Source of the DNA: a virus
DNA: 34,513 bases
IMG/VR virus record: IMGVR_UViG_3300021963_000382
Coordinates: 1 to 34,513 of that record
Strand: one strand, 5' to 3'
The first letter of the stretch is position 1; each line of letters begins with the position of its first letter. Of this stretch, positions 25,078 through 33,486 are shown one piece after another. The notes beneath the pieces were generated by a model. That model was not told the DNA's origin, ran no database searches, and saw only the letters and a list, made by a program, of their open reading frames with translations. The position numbers were made by a program, and so were the translations under genes.

Positions 25078-25524
25078 TTAATGTTTAGATTTACGATCCA
25101 TGTAGGATAATGCTTCGCTCAGTATCCCTATTTGCCTAGTGTATGCATCATGTTCCCAAGGCAGGTTAGTGTATTCTTCATAGGTCATGTCATCTGGCAA
25201 TTTGTTTGTGATAAAGATACCATGCCAATAACATTTACCGTCTCTTGTAATCTTCAATGTACCCTTGTGTTTTTGATGTACATGAATCAATTCATGTGCT
25301 AGAATCTTTGGTATCGTGTCAAAAGGTAGATCGTAATTTATCCCTATACGGTTGATGCGATACATATCAATTCCGCCATAGACATTTTCTCCTAAGTCAT
25401 ACAAACAGACTTCTAAGATTTCTGGTAACTCAATGATAGTGGATATAGCTTTAGCAAACGCATCTATGATAGATTCGTGTTTGTAGCTATGCTGATTGTT
25501 TTGATAAAAATATCTAATATCCAC
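25078..25524 (-). CDS. SprT/zincin-like metallopeptidase-fold protein
   Basis: 148 residues. ILAHELIHVHQKH holds the HExxH zinc motif (H77, E78, H81), and a later Glu in LPWEHDAY (E124) can be the third ligand. The preceding GINYDLPFDTIP and the size recall SprT-like or minigluzincin proteins. Substrate unknown. It forms an operon with the GNAT-like gene, three bases apart. Confidence 0.75.
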   Translation of the reverse strand: MDIRYFYQNNQHSYKHESIIDAFAKAISTIIELPEILEVCLYDLGENVYGGIDMYRINRIGINYDLPFDTIPKILAHELIHVHQKHKGTLKITRDGKCYWHGIFITNKLPDDMTYEEYTNLPWEHDAYTRQIGILSEALSYMDRKSKH

Positions 25525-25527
25525 AAT

Positions 25528-25992
25528 TTATTTAGTAGGTTCGATGTTTTCTTGATTTGGTTTGGTGTATTCGTAATTGATAGTGTCTAAGTTTTCACGG
25601 AATACGATTGCCCCGTTACGCAAATGAAATCGTCTTGCCATTTCTGTCTTAGGACTTAATGTTACAAATCTAGTCACACTAGGATAATCACGCTGGATAC
25701 CCTTTACTGCTTCAATTAACAATTGTTGACCTTTACCATTCTTGTAACTCCAAATAGTGTAGAATACTGCGGTTGTAGGTACAATTGCGGTAGTCTTTAA
25801 ATCATTGGTGTTTTCTGGTACAAAGTCATGGAAGCTAACGCAAACCATTGCATCTGGTTTTTCTTCATTAACCAAGGCAGCTACCATTCTTCCATCACTT
25901 ACTCTAAAATCTGTAGGTATTTCAGGTCGTACCGGGTCATCTTTAATGAATTCTAGTAGTTTGTCTGTGAGGTCTTTGATGAAGTGCAACAT
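25528..25992 (-). CDS. GNAT-family acetyltransferase-like protein
   Basis: 154 residues. The GNAT core is visible as DAMVCVSFHDF, then AVFYTIWSYKNGKGQQLLIE (GKG-type acetyl-CoA loop followed by a helix) and FVTLSPKTEMARRFHLRNGA, the usual final strand and helix. The substrate is unknown. A TATAAATA box lies eight bases upstream of the ATG. Confidence 0.65.
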   Translation of the reverse strand: MLHFIKDLTDKLLEFIKDDPVRPEIPTDFRVSDGRMVAALVNEEKPDAMVCVSFHDFVPENTNDLKTTAIVPTTAVFYTIWSYKNGKGQQLLIEAVKGIQRDYPSVTRFVTLSPKTEMARRFHLRNGAIVFRENLDTINYEYTKPNQENIEPTK

Positions 25993-26030: not shown

Positions 26031-26822
26031 TTATGCACTATAAATCTTAGCCAATGATTTTTCAACCAATCGCTGTCTTTCTTGTTTGCTTTTGGCGCCC
26101 AATACAGTTATGTTATATAACTGATTGTTGGCTTTAACTAACAGTGTAATGCAGAAGCCGGCAGCACTAGTGAAGCCGGTCTTGATTGTGATTATCCCCT
26201 CACGACCAAAATAACTACTAGTAGGATTATTGGCTACTACTTGTGGTTTACGTTTTGGTTCTTTAACAGACTTTTTACGCTTTTTGGATTCTATTGGAGA
26301 AAAAGTTCGTTGTGATTGGGCCGCTGATTGTACTATGTCAAACTCGCTTACTGCTCTGGTTAAGGTTATTATATCTCCAATAGTGCTGTAGTTCATAGGA
26401 CTCAGTCCAGTTGGTTCTACAAAACCAGAACGAAACATGTTCAATTCTTTTGAATATTCGTTCATCTTAGCAACGAATCCTGCCCTACCATTAGGGTAGT
26501 TTTCTGCTAGAGTAATTGCGGCTATGTTGTCACTACTAATCAATGACAAGTTAATCAGTTCTAATCTAGTAAGAATCATTCCTTTACTCAGTTTGGTATT
26601 AGGTGTCTTGTTACTTCGAACCGTTAGTTTTTCTGTTAAGTCTTGATCCGATTTCAATACTGTGTATACTGTCATTAATTTGCTTATGCTAGCAATACTG
26701 ACTTCATCACAGTCCAAAGACCCATTTAACACTGTATCATTGGTTATGTTATACAATACCGTGTTGGGATAGGCAAAGCCAATCAATGGGAAAAATAATA
26801 ATATTACAAGTATTTTACGCAT
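26031..26822 (-). CDS. D-alanyl-D-alanine carboxy/endopeptidase-like protein (S11 family)
   Basis: 263 residues from the ATG at 26822, with a signal peptide MRKILVILLFFPLIGFAYPN. All three penicillin-binding motifs are present: SISK (S45, K48), SDN (S97, N99) and KTG (214-216). It would act on peptidoglycan cross-links or stem peptides in the periplasm. It lacks the C-terminal domain of PBP5-type enzymes, like PBP7/PbpG. A Lys/Arg-rich insert lies at about 180-193. A role in lysis or cell-wall remodelling is inferred. Confidence 0.85.
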   Translation of the reverse strand: MRKILVILLFFPLIGFAYPNTVLYNITNDTVLNGSLDCDEVSIASISKLMTVYTVLKSDQDLTEKLTVRSNKTPNTKLSKGMILTRLELINLSLISSDNIAAITLAENYPNGRAGFVAKMNEYSKELNMFRSGFVEPTGLSPMNYSTIGDIITLTRAVSEFDIVQSAAQSQRTFSPIESKKRKKSVKEPKRKPQVVANNPTSSYFGREGIITIKTGFTSAAGFCITLLVKANNQLYNITVLGAKSKQERQRLVEKSLAKIYSA

Positions 26823-29850: not shown

Positions 29851-30048
29851 TTATTCTCCAAATTTAAATTCACGTATCCACTCAAATTTAGTGGTAGTAG
29901 GCATCCACTTGAATTGTTGTTTTTTATGCTCAGGTTGTTCAAAATCAGTACAGACCATGATCCAACCTTTCTCTTTACTAAAGCCAACGGTCTCAGTGAC
30001 GCGGATGACTTCAACAATTTTATCTTGAATTTTTGCTATCACAGTCAT
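29851..30048 (-). CDS. small hypothetical protein
   Basis: 65 residues, beta strand-rich at the start (MTVIAKIQDKIVEVIRVTET) and aromatic at the end (KFEWIREFKFGE). AAGGAG precedes the ATG by seven bases. It is the first gene of the five-gene operon driven by the promoter at 30072-30100. Function is unknown. Confidence 0.72.
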   Translation of the reverse strand: MTVIAKIQDKIVEVIRVTETVGFSKEKGWIMVCTDFEQPEHKKQQFKWMPTTTKFEWIREFKFGE

Positions 30049-30071
30049 GTCAACTCCTTCTAATAGAGAGT

Positions 30072-30100
30072 ATTATAACTTATTTGGGTATTATTGTCAA
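30072..30100 (-). promoter_or_regulatory. consensus sigma70 promoter
   Basis: TTGACA (30100-30095), 17 bp, TATAAT (30077-30072). The spacer contains TACCCAAATAAG, so it differs from the ATAAATC-type cassettes. It drives the phosphatase/kinase operon. Confidence 0.88.
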
Positions 30101-30109
30101 GCGCAAGAT

Positions 30110-30192
30110 AGCACCCTAGGTGCGCTAAATGTAAACTAAAGAACTATATAGGAGTATGTAAACTCAATAATGCGGTGTTTTACTAGGGTGCT
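30110..30192. repeat. long-range inverted repeat with an alternative local hairpin
   Basis: AGCACCCTAG (30110-30119) and CTAGGGTGCT (30183-30192) can pair over 63 bases and are followed by TTTAT on the plus strand. The left arm can instead form GCACC-CTA-GGTGC (30111-30123). The 200-bp gap 30101-30302 has no gene. Confidence 0.55.
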
Positions 30193-30202
30193 TTTATAAA
30201 GA

Positions 30203-30257
30203 TTCTATATCTTTTTCACTTACAGAGCCAGTCTTATCGGCTGGGTGTGATATAGAA
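30203..30257 (-). ncRNA. candidate small structured RNA (hairpin) next to the Ro60-like gene
   Basis: TTCTATATC and GATATAGAA (30257-30249 and 30211-30203 on the minus strand) close a 55-nt element. Inside are CAC/GTG pairs, a bulged A run and AGCC/GGCT pairs around a nine-base loop. The shape (terminal stem, bulge, inner loop) recalls Y RNAs that bind Ro proteins. No promoter of its own is seen and the strand is uncertain. Confidence 0.3.
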
Positions 30258-30263
30258 CGCTTA

Positions 30264-30287
30264 TAAAAACAGACACTAGGTGTCTGT
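30264..30287 (-). terminator. intrinsic terminator of the Ro60-like gene
   Basis: ACAGACAC, CTA, GTGTCTGT, then TTTT on the minus strand, 16 bp after the stop at 30303. Confidence 0.9.
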
Positions 30288-30302
30288 CTACTACTATTTA
30301 GC

Positions 30303-31730
30303 TTACGCTAAATCGTAGCGATCCTTCATAACGGTCTTCAACATGATTGCTTCTGGGGAGAAGTCATCCAAGTTGCCAGTTAGAATACTTTGTGCAATTG
30401 CTGGGCTAAATCCTGAGACTAGCGCAACACCTGCCTTGTTAAACTTAACTGGACTGTTACCGTATGCGGCGTTCAAGTTCCAGAACACAACCTTTGGGAT
30501 TGTGTAGCCGGCGCTTTCGTACTTACGTGCAATCATTTCAATTGCTGAATCATCGTGAGACACTCCAGCATCAAATTGCATATCACTGAAGATAACGATT
30601 GTACCTGGCATTTCTGCTTGAGGAACATTGTTATCAACTGCTGTCTTAAGCACCAAATCAAATGCCTTGTTCAAGTCGGTGTTAGCGACTTCACCAGTGT
30701 TCATTTGGTCAATCTTTTGATTGATGTTACCCTTTAGAGTAACCAGCTTTGGAGTACGACTGAAAGTCAAGAACGTATCCTTGAACTTACCAGTGTTCTT
30801 GTCAGCAAAGTACAATCCCAATGAGATTGCAACATCCAAACAAGTCAAAGTACTCTTGCTACCACGACCACCAGCAAGACAAGTCATTGAACCTGAACTA
30901 TCAACCATTGGCAATACATCAGCATCGCCAACAAAGTTAGGTAGTGCATCCCATTGTGCTTGCAATGCATCCAGTTCAGTCTTAGTCATAGACTTACGGC
31001 TGTAACTGTTGATAGCACCCTTCAACACATCATAGGGGAACACTGCGCCTGCGTTAATCTTAACACCGGCTTCGCCCTTAACCAACTTAGTTACATATTC
31101 AGCATAGGTTGTACCATGACGACCAAATGCCTTCTTGTAACGTGCATGTGCCACTGAAGGAACATGGTTGTAGTTGATGTTATCCCAATCGTTAGAACAC
31201 ATTTGTGTTTCAACAACATTAGTTAGAGCAACAAGGCTCTTACGATATTGCTTTGGAGTCATTCCAAAGAATTCACGGATTTCACGTGCAACATCGCCCT
31301 TACGAGGAGTCCACTTTGCAGCCAATCCATTACGGTTACGCAATGCATCGCCTAACATAGTGTATGCTTGTGCCTTAAGAGGCTTAGTCTTAAACACTAG
31401 CAAGTCATCGTAACGACCCAATTCAGGGACCTTACCCAATAAACGGCTAGCGTCTTCTGGGTTAGTCTTTTCCAAGTGAACTAGGATTTGACGGAACAAT
31501 TCACGTTCACCTGAACCACCACGTGCATCACGTGCCCATTGGACAATACGCAATGCCAGATCGGAGTTTTCAACATACGCCGCAGTGAATGCAGGGATTA
31601 TGTTCTTTCCACGGCTTGCACCGATGTTATAGAACAAATCAACGCAGGCATTTGCGGTTGACTTAAGTGCCTTCATACCGTTTGTGGTACGGGCTTCTTG
31701 GTTAGCTACTGCTTCTACAAATGTTGACAT
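30303..31730 (-). CDS. Ro60/TROVE-like vWA protein (DUF2828-like)
   Basis: 475 residues. The helical N-terminal part (ALKSTANACVDLFYNIGASR, then RIVQWARDARGGSGERELFR and VPELGRYDDLL) follows DUF2828, whose layout matches the RNA-binding HEAT ring of Ro60/TROVE proteins. Residues from 270 on form a vWA domain with a complete metal site: DSSGS (276-280), T351 and D383 in IFSDMQF. Ro proteins bind Y RNAs and misfolded RNAs. It has its own promoter, a structured leader, GC-richer codons than its neighbours and a strong terminator. Confidence 0.85.
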   Translation of the reverse strand: MSTFVEAVANQEARTTNGMKALKSTANACVDLFYNIGASRGKNIIPAFTAAYVENSDLALRIVQWARDARGGSGERELFRQILVHLEKTNPEDASRLLGKVPELGRYDDLLVFKTKPLKAQAYTMLGDALRNRNGLAAKWTPRKGDVAREIREFFGMTPKQYRKSLVALTNVVETQMCSNDWDNINYNHVPSVAHARYKKAFGRHGTTYAEYVTKLVKGEAGVKINAGAVFPYDVLKGAINSYSRKSMTKTELDALQAQWDALPNFVGDADVLPMVDSSGSMTCLAGGRGSKSTLTCLDVAISLGLYFADKNTGKFKDTFLTFSRTPKLVTLKGNINQKIDQMNTGEVANTDLNKAFDLVLKTAVDNNVPQAEMPGTIVIFSDMQFDAGVSHDDSAIEMIARKYESAGYTIPKVVFWNLNAAYGNSPVKFNKAGVALVSGFSPAIAQSILTGNLDDFSPEAIMLKTVMKDRYDLA

Positions 31731-31756
31731 ATTGTACTCCTTTCAATGTGTGTTAT

Positions 31757-31817
31757 GCAACAGGATGCGCTTTTGGTTTCATTTATGATTGAAATTTTAA
31801 AGTTGCTGAATGCATCC
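31757..31817 (-). promoter_or_regulatory. pseudoknot-like mRNA leader of the Ro60-like gene
   Basis: In transcript order: GGATGC (31817-31812), GCAAC (31806-31802), hairpin TTTCA/TGAAA (31794-31777), GCATCC (31768-31763), GTTGC (31761-31757). The first pairs with the fourth and the second with the fifth, an interleaved pseudoknot. It ends 13 bases before the ribosome-binding site AAAGGAG. The opening AGGAT-N5-CAGCAA recurs in the noncoding RNA upstream. Confidence 0.55.
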
Positions 31818-31826
31818 TAAAAAAGA

Positions 31827-31855
31827 ATTATATCACTGTTTTGATATAATGTAAA
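31827..31855 (-). promoter_or_regulatory. sigma70 promoter of the Ro60-like gene
   Basis: TTTACA (31855-31850), 17 bp, TATAAT (31832-31827). The predicted message starts just before the pseudoknot leader. Confidence 0.85.
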
Positions 31856-31860
31856 TTGAT

Positions 31861-32299
31861 TTTGGGTAAACGGGATGTTTGTGCCAATTTGTTTATTTTC
31901 TGGTCTGGCCAATCATAGCACCCAGACCCTATCAACATTCATGTTGCCTATCTAGTACTTGTGTCTGTCACTAGAAACATAGTATGTCTTTCCATTCTGT
32001 CAACTATTCCATCATCGCTTAGTTTCCTAAGAGTATTTCTACTGTCTCCCGACCACCTTCTATAGCTTTAGTTGCGTTAAGTTTAAATTGCTGAAATCAT
32101 CCCATACTGAATGAAAACAGGATCGTTGTTGACTGCTTTATTAGCCAGGGCCATCACACCTGGTTTGTTAGTCTTGCTTCAATAGCACCCTTCAACGCTC
32201 GGTGTTTTTAAGCACTCTGCTCCAGTTACTACCACAGTGTCTAACAGTTCATAGTTAATTATGAATTGCTGTACCGATCCTAAAATTTAATCATTCAAT
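31861..32299 (-). ncRNA. candidate large structured noncoding RNA
   Basis: This stretch has no credible reading frame but its own promoter. Hairpins on the minus strand include TTCATA/TATGAA (32265-32248), CCAGG/CCTGG (32163-32145), AGTA-GAAA-TACT (32043-32032) next to CTTAG-GAAA-CTAAG (32031-32018), TCTAGT/ACTAGA (31975-31951), CAACA-TGAA-TGTTG (31946-31933) and GGTCTGG/CCAGACC (31928-31902). GGATCG (32280-32275) can pair with CGATCC (32125-32120) to close a domain. Size, ornate hairpins and position beside tRNA genes recall GOLLD/ROOL-type phage RNAs; a large Y-type RNA partner of the Ro60-like protein is the alternative. The 3' end is not defined. Confidence 0.55.
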
Positions 32300-32305
32300 A
32301 CACGT

Positions 32306-32334
32306 ATTGTATCTGAATTTGTATTTGCCGTCAA
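32306..32334 (-). promoter_or_regulatory. sigma70 promoter of the noncoding RNA
   Basis: TTGACG (32334-32329), 17 bp, TACAAT (32311-32306) on the minus strand, 20 bp after the tRNA-Ser CCA end. The next reading frame is 570 bp away and has its own promoter. Confidence 0.75.
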
Positions 32335-32354
32335 TGACTTTTGGGCAAACTCTT

Positions 32355-32446
32355 TGGCGGAAGCGGTGAGATTCGAACTCACGGAGAGATTGCTCCCTCG
32401 TCTGATTTCAAGTCAGGTACCTTAAACCGGGCTCGGCCACGCTTCC
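32355..32446 (-). tRNA. tRNA-Ser (anticodon UGA)
   Basis: 92 nt with CCA encoded. The acceptor stem is GGAAGCG/CGCTTCC with discriminator G, the anticodon loop CTTGAAA gives UGA, a long variable arm GGGAG/CTCTCC marks a class II tRNA, and the T arm is GTGAG-TTCGAAT-CTCAC. Its first 25 bases also encode the C-terminus of the HNH protein. Confidence 0.95.
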
Positions 32447-32889: not shown

Positions 32890-32954
32890 AGTAGTTTCCT
32901 CACTATTATTTATGCTTTATTGCAATAATTTACTTTTTAGGTGCGTTTATCCAA

Positions 32955-32964
32955 CACGCTTCCT
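32955..32964 (-). repeat. copy of the tRNA-Ser 5' end flanking the HNH gene
   Basis: AGGAAGCGTG on the minus strand, identical to 32447-32438, where it spans the first nine bases of tRNA-Ser. The two copies enclose the HNH gene. The surrounding gap 32890-33095 has no gene but several short hairpins (GGATAA/TTATCC, CTAAGG/CCTTAG, GCGT/ACGC). Confidence 0.6.
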
Positions 32965-33095
32965 ATTTGAATATAACTATGCCAGTACCGGACCAGTTCA
33001 CCTGTTACATTGCGTTTATGTACTATTGCTTGCCCTAAGGATTAGCTAGCTACCTTAGCGACTCATACTGGATAATGTAACTTATCCTCTGCTCT

Positions 33096-33181: not shown

Positions 33182-33394
33182 TTATCTTTCAATTTTTTTA
33201 AGACGTTTAAGATACTCACGTCCTACTAAACCTTCTTCAATTTCTGTCAATGCAGTTACAGTAGGTCCTGCTTTAACATTAAGTTTGGCACGATGCCCAC
33301 TTTTTAATTCACGGACACGTTGACTTGCGATAAGAATCAAGTCATAACGATTACCTACAGCTTCTACTGCTTTTTCACTACTGATACGTGCCAT
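33182..33394 (-). CDS. rpoZ: RNA polymerase omega subunit
   Basis: 70 residues from the ATG at 33394. MARISSEKAVEAVGNRYDLI and LIASQRVRELKSGH, then TVTALTEIEEGLVGREYL, match bacterial omega closely; E. coli omega is 91 residues, so the variable C-terminal tail is shorter. Omega clasps the beta-prime subunit and helps assembly. The gene sits between tRNA-Gly and tRNA-Ala and is likely expressed with them. An upstream in-frame ATG lies within the tRNA-Gly region and is not used. Confidence 0.92.
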   Translation of the reverse strand: MARISSEKAVEAVGNRYDLILIASQRVRELKSGHRAKLNVKAGPTVTALTEIEEGLVGREYLKRLKKIER

Positions 33395-33412
33395 ATTTTT
33401 CTTTCTTTGTTT

Positions 33413-33486
33413 TGGAGCGGGATAGGAGAATCGAACTCCTGTCCGAACCTTGGCAAGGTCCCGTTCTACCATTTAACTAATCCCGC
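33413..33486 (-). tRNA. tRNA-Gly (anticodon GCC)
   Basis: 74 nt with CCA encoded. The acceptor stem is GCGGGAT/ATCCCGC with discriminator T, the anticodon loop TTGCCAA gives GCC, and the T arm is AGGAG-TTCGATT-CTCCT. Confidence 0.95.

Follow-up and report, generated by a model that had tools for sequence, protein, structure and literature searches.

A 34,513-nt stretch of viral DNA (IMG/VR virus record IMGVR_UViG_3300021963_000382, positions 1 to 34,513; henceforth the window) carries three RNA modules, A, B and C, between a tRNA-Ser gene and the gene for a DUF2828 protein. These modules are probably members of a large undescribed family of phage RNAs and would act as Y-RNA-like partners of the Ro60-like DUF2828 protein. 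The evidence for the family itself and for its link to DUF2828 is strong. All three modules share a common plan: they start with NGGAU.., the 5′ strand of a 7-bp terminal stem is followed by three bases, CAGCAA and a variable interior, and the 3′ strand of the stem is followed by GUU. DUF2828 is present even in laboratory phages, KVP40 and P100 among them; Rfam nevertheless has no family for its RNA partners, and we found no description of the CAGCAA/GUU signature in the literature searched, which covered part of the literature only. One signature now finds these partners and gives DUF2828 a likely job, that of a Ro60-type ribonucleoprotein (RNP).

RNA elements that accompany DUF2828 genes

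We found 446 elements of this architecture, mostly adjoining DUF2828 genes; the public collection has 682 phage records with the DUF2828 protein itself. Complete pairing (100%) among the 21 short elements used to build a covariance model follows from their selection and is not evidence. The fair tests are a descriptor with free pairs and strand, spacer and core controls in which any stem letters were allowed. The descriptor left three stem pairs free (outer, x and y), which were thus not used for selection, and it retrieved 317 elements versus about one in shuffled sequence. The free pairs were complementary in 307 (outer), 314 (x) and 303 (y) of the 317 elements, and x and y used AU, UA, GC and CG alike. 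With any stem letters allowed, 92 loci oriented by DUF2828 yielded 235 matches in the sense direction versus 6 in antisense. Altering the spacer or the CAGCAA core lost most of the signal; only the 3-nt spacer with the CAGCAA core gave it.

The same architecture, with quite different stem letters, is present in phages of Listeria, Mycobacterium, Aeromonas, Vibrio, Synechococcus and Enterococcus. Phages whose DUF2828 proteins are only ~30–47% identical carry elements, including Aeromonas phage 4_4572 (six, in tandem), Listeria phage P100plus (three), Mycobacterium phage Finnry (three), KVP40, BUCT-ZZ01 and Enterococcus phage Bill. In whole genomes, the elements cluster mostly within ~17 kb of DUF2828 on the same strand; those found with the covariance model in BF, Ahp1 and Ci1 lie farther away, and scattered lone descriptor matches far from DUF2828 were counted as chance.

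The covariance model matched all eight DUF2828 phages outside its training set at E ≤ 1.1e-4 (SUSP1, CP81, KVP40, Ahp1, Ci1, BF, phiM12 and BUCT-ZZ01), which include Escherichia, Vibrio and Campylobacter phages, and in four phages that lack DUF2828 it gave no match with E under 0.58. The strict descriptor had no match in SUSP1, CP81, Ahp1, Ci1 and BF, where the model found elements. Each of the 12 named DUF2828 phages examined carries elements by model or descriptor (Bill by descriptor only). Among the contigs that were found by RNA pattern alone and have a genuine element, 39 of 51 carry DUF2828. Bacterial genomes contributed DUF2828 in two contigs of metagenome-assembled genomes only, with one element each.

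Several single loci have features of their own. Ahead of each of the three tandem elements of Bill (locus L211, 3340–3770) is a repeat able to form a hairpin, similar in all three (TAGYTCYAACCT..RGAGCATAAAGAA), which may be a signal for processing. Two RNA elements overlap the annotated open reading frame (ORF) gp55 of Finnry (locus L208, 5541–5756), which is unlikely to be a real gene. On two further phage contigs, L184 (9381–9527 and 10841–11140, minus strand) and L200 (3780–4076), we detected Polynucleobacter-1 RNA (83 bits, L184) and permuted tmRNA (L184 and L200); the Polynucleobacter-1 RNA in L184 is genuine and is an RNA separate from the element family.

Modules A, B and C in the window

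No ORF of at least 60 aa exists in 31731–32354, in agreement with the original prediction that the region has no credible gene. That prediction envisaged one large RNA of ~440 nt beside the tRNA genes. The interval instead holds two separate RNAs, with a third copy of the motif just outside it (31759–31818). The features of the locus are as follows.

32355–32446, minus strand: tRNA-Ser(TGA) gene, directly upstream of the promoter on the same strand and first of the neighbouring tRNA genes
32306–32334, minus strand: promoter TTGACG-17-TACAAT, preceding modules A and B and conserved in relatives
32116–32281, minus strand: RNA module A, AGGAUCG-GUA-CAGCAA ... CGAUCCU-GUU, 166 nt, five helices
31869–32103, minus strand: RNA module B, GGGAUG(A)-UUU-CAGCAA ... 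(A)CAUCCC-GUU, 235 nt, with a covarying H-type pseudoknot
31827–31855, minus strand: promoter TTTACA-17-TATAAT with extended -10, predicted RNA start near the A of module C
31759–31818, minus strand: RNA module C, AGGAUGC-AUU-CAGCAA-hairpin-GCAUCCU-GUU, 60 nt, of the short class, in the 5′ leader of the DUF2828 gene
30303–31730, minus strand: gene for a DUF2828/DUF7788 protein of 475 aa, predicted Ro60/TROVE fold (helical repeats and a vWA domain)

We recruited 80 related IMG/VR loci through the DUF2828 protein and aligned the 624-nt region to them. The alignment resolves A, B and the DUF2828 leader C. In relatives, A and B swap order, occur singly or are parted by inserts, and we therefore treat them as independent units. 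Folding energy alone does not prove structure (z = -0.45 on the minus strand, which is the transcribed strand, not significant; z = -2.6 on the plus strand); covariation does. For the 30 pairs of module A in 20 relatives, 92.5% of cells are paired versus 29–45% when slid, and 17 pairs are altered on both sides; the terminal stem is invariant among the 20 relatives selected. In the H-type pseudoknot of module B, GUGC of a hairpin loop pairs with a downstream GCAC in 79 of 80 cells versus 22–44 when slid, with several pair types used. The seventh stem pair of module B is an A.A mismatch in the window. Covariation in collected homologues had been named in advance as the check on a dedicated structured RNA beside the tRNA genes, and in modules A and B it bears that claim out. 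The two GAAA hairpins noted earlier (32018–32043, minus strand) do exist and lie within a less conserved part of module B; the tertiary docking proposed for them is not supported, the second hairpin being kept only partly in relatives. Module C scores 57.5 bits with the short-element covariance model, to whose training set it belonged. Module B had no match in E. coli genomes, searched as a test for rRNA copying, and blastn of the region against the named phages was uninformative, the matches being mainly to tRNA-Ser.

The promoter at 32334–32306 (minus strand), also part of the original prediction, recurs beyond chance. Some two dozen distinct relatives have the form TTGACN-17-TAYAAT followed by AYRYGTATTGAATGATT, the spacer being variable, and the conserved form TTGACN-17-TAYAATAYRYGTATTGAATGATT precedes A-type or B-type modules and, in relatives, also protein genes. 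Because the promoter is conserved before A or B in so many relatives, modules A and B are very likely transcribed in this phage.

A short element lies within 110 nt upstream of 79 of 89 DUF2828 genes, versus 1.5% at random positions, and 64 of these cases have a -10-like box. Module C starts where RNA from the second promoter (31855–31827) would begin, and the leader stem of 4_4572 lies directly against the ribosome-binding site. From this arrangement, module C may, at about even odds, let the DUF2828 protein regulate itself by shutting off its own mRNA.

Other features surround these genes on the minus strand. Directly 3′ of the DUF2828 gene (30018–30302) are a terminator-like hairpin, GACAGACACCTAGTGTCTGTTTTT, and after it a second hairpin-rich stretch, and a perfect promoter TTGACA-17-TATAAT (30100–30072) lies ahead of the gene after DUF2828. 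A stretch of ~200 nt with no assigned function (32890–33095) separates tRNA-Ala from an HNH gene, and a small protein with a match to RNA polymerase omega/Rpb6 is encoded among the phage tRNA genes (33182–33472).

The DUF2828 protein and known RNA systems

The product of the gene at 30303–31730 matches only DUF2828 and DUF7788 by sequence at E ≤ 0.001 and has no sequence match to Pfam TROVE at that threshold. Sequence comparison with solved structures returned nothing relevant, and a fold search was needed. In the AlphaFold model, the protein is a Ro60/TROVE fold, with the helical-repeat ring and vWA domain of Ro60. The ten best matches in VIA-align are all Ro60/TROVE proteins (Z 11.1–14.6 over 338–376 residues), whereas vWA-only proteins reach at most 10.2. 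The leading matches include 9kop (Z 14.6), Ro60 of Thermus phage phiLo (13.4), Rsr of D. radiodurans (13.1) and Xenopus Ro. Given the co-occurrence and the modelled fold, we infer that the DUF2828 protein binds these RNAs. The elements are candidate Y RNAs in a broad sense, in that their genes lie next to that of a predicted Ro60-fold protein and a terminal stem pairs both ends of the RNA (with covariation on unselected pairs). A Y-RNA-like partner had been offered earlier as an alternative, and it is this alternative that fits a modelled Ro60-fold neighbour and an RNA architecture that tracks DUF2828 across phages.

Searching the window against Rfam, with gathering cut-offs and with E ≤ 5, we detected only tRNAs, chance matches and a sub-threshold match to RF01414. 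Among known systems, YrlA (RF02553) with Rsr/Ro60 is one of the nearest. As in that system, a gene for a predicted Ro60-fold protein adjoins, a terminal stem joins the RNA ends, and several relatives carry a circularly permuted tRNA-like module (T-arm before D-arm). The YrlA consensus differs in lacking this terminal stem and the CAGCAA/GUU signature. No element reaches the YrlA gathering score of 69 (sub-threshold scores of 44.9, 39.5 and 34.4 bits), the model has no match for the window's own modules, and the phage genomes carry many such RNAs each.

In the Class I RNAs of Dictyostelium (RF01414), the terminal stem has an invariant 5′ G and adjoins an 11-nt motif, and the RNA ends in CUGU; none was found outside dictyostelids (PMC7919456). 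Like them, the phage elements are ~60 nt long, are encoded by many genes and have a variable interior; their short terminal stem keeps its 5′ G almost without exception, a conserved motif follows the 5′ strand immediately, and the 3′ end is CUGU-like. RF01414 gave eight matches in ~138 kb (cut-offs of E ≤ 3 to 5), every one of them on an element and one of them on module C (27.4 bits), with scores of 25–30.6 bits (30.6 for the best element) that are all weak and below the gathering score of 41.5. In contrast to the phage elements, Class I RNAs are known only from social amoebae, where the known direct binder is the RRM protein Rnp1A (PMC7919456). The likeness may reflect convergence on a similar binding site just as well as kinship, and the elements offer a lead on the Class I RNAs.

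tRNA mimicry and possible roles

Many element interiors resemble parts of tRNAs, although the relatedness of the elements inflates the counts. Of 446 elements, 87 have a T-arm; in 21 a D-arm follows the T-arm, the circular permutation known from YrlA, and in three the D, anticodon and T arms stand in their usual order. Medium-length elements that copy tRNA parts combine a T-arm, an acceptor-like hairpin and a D-arm, permuted relative to tRNA. The permuted module is found in ~20 relatives, including Finnry and Bill, with YrlA-like matches at E 1e-6 to 1e-3, and is not seen in the window's A, B and C. Among 200 short elements, 98 have a best hairpin whose loop is 7 nt long, versus 10.5 in shuffles, and these loops follow the tRNA pattern C32-U33-NNN-A37-A38. 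More than half of them (58 of 98, with 3 expected) match an anticodon loop of an actual tRNA in these phages letter for letter, chiefly those of Lys-UUU, Thr-UGU, Arg-UCU and Tyr-GUA. There are no exact 17-nt copies of tRNA anticodon arms among the elements.

Our best guess is that these RNAs serve as bait or scaffold for tRNA-acting enzymes. The DUF2828 protein would grip the common RNA end (7-bp terminal stem, NNN, CAGCAA and GUU tail), and the variable interior would be the business end of each RNA. Held in this way, tRNA-like baits might occupy or recruit tRNA-acting enzymes during infection, such as anticodon nucleases or enzymes of RNA repair or decay. The tRNA-copying interiors suggest an overlooked RNA-based decoy or RNA-repair system, and with the signature, tRNA-mimic decoys can be tested directly in the conflict between phage and host. 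The decoy role by itself we put forward tentatively. A broader picture, in which phages deploy an arsenal of Ro60-bound RNAs showing Lys-UUU, Thr-UGU, Arg-UCU and Tyr-GUA loops as baits against tRNA-cleaving defences and the amoebal Class I RNAs are the same kind of Ro60-type RNP, seems unlikely.

Several points weigh against parts of this interpretation. The window's own A and B have no recognisable tRNA part, and the loop of module C has 8 nt and is only loosely like a CAU anticodon loop. An anticodon nuclease did not cleave Salmonella YrlA, so cleavage of a bait cannot be taken for granted; the authors of that work do raise competitive inhibition (PMC7790460). The AlphaFold model has a medium pLDDT of 67, and 12 of the 51 contigs with genuine elements are without DUF2828, though contigs are fragments. 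Our counts also overstate the number of independent events because elements share ancestry.

The elements may explain abundant unannotated phage transcripts. Passages of PMC12282133 describe three highly transcribed non-coding regions in Listeria phage CKA15, all on the strand of an Rsr-like gene and no more than 2 kb upstream of it, and suggest that they are Y RNAs. In the CKA15 record (OR088597.1), we located three elements, at ~25,290–25,552, within a 396-nt unannotated gap just before the Rsr-like gene. The order of tRNAs, abundant non-coding transcripts and Rsr-like gene is the same, with the CAGCAA elements in that interval; the difference is that those passages name no motif or family. 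They also state that ~67% of late-infection phage transcripts align to CKA15_059 and 060. The top transcribed region reported there (26,236–26,727) coincides with the position of a ROOL-like RNA (~26,195–26,746; CKA15_059–061) and not with the CAGCAA elements.

The strongest competing explanation is a scaffold or quality-control function without any decoy, as for the Rsr-Y RNA of Deinococcus, in which the stem would hold the Ro60-like protein and the interior would link it to a nuclease or to the host tRNA/rRNA machinery. A bacterial Y RNA works with PNPase (as cited in PMC7790460 and in passages of PMC12282133), relatives carry YrlA-like permuted tRNA modules, and genes for RtcB-like ligases or RNA ligases lie close to DUF2828 in P100plus, BF and 4_4572. 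However, the broad range of anticodon loops (UUU, UGU, UCU, GUA, GCU and others) and the many RNAs per genome resemble a display more than a single tether, and we regard a pure scaffold as possible though somewhat doubtful.

The elements could instead act only in cis, as stems in tRNA-array transcripts or the DUF2828 leader that mark processing sites or regulate the operon, with no free RNA. Many elements do sit between tRNA genes, immediately 3′ of CCA ends, and a leader element is present at 79 of 89 DUF2828 loci. A and B, however, have their own conserved promoter and richly covarying interiors, other interiors mimic tRNAs, and non-coding regions upstream of the CKA15 Rsr-like gene are highly transcribed according to the passages cited above, which makes an exclusively cis function very unlikely. 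We give little credence to a lure for tRNA-modifying enzymes, in which anticodon-arm mimics with U36 or A36 and A37 (substrate features for t6A and i6A) would titrate those enzymes. Position 36 is indeed skewed in the mimic loops (U 71, A 23, C 4, G 0) compared with phage tRNAs (U 654, C 515, A 408, G 406), but such a lure leaves the D/T-arm modules and modules A and B unexplained. A single large, ornate RNA like GOLLD or ROOL, raised earlier on account of the phage or prophage tRNA-array neighbourhood that these RNAs share with the modules, is scarcely credible even with a ROOL-like RNA near DUF2828 in Listeria phages (P100plus, locus L207, 2468–3019; 86 bits, below the gathering score of 99.1), given that the window has no sequence or structure match to either family and that the modules swap order and occur singly in relatives.

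With RNAs bound to DUF2828 proteins as the preferred reading, one further observation from CKA15 concerns delivery. The Rsr-like protein (CKA15_055; locus L297, 2900–4420) is present in purified virions according to passages of PMC12282133, and the RNP might therefore be injected into the cell with the genome.
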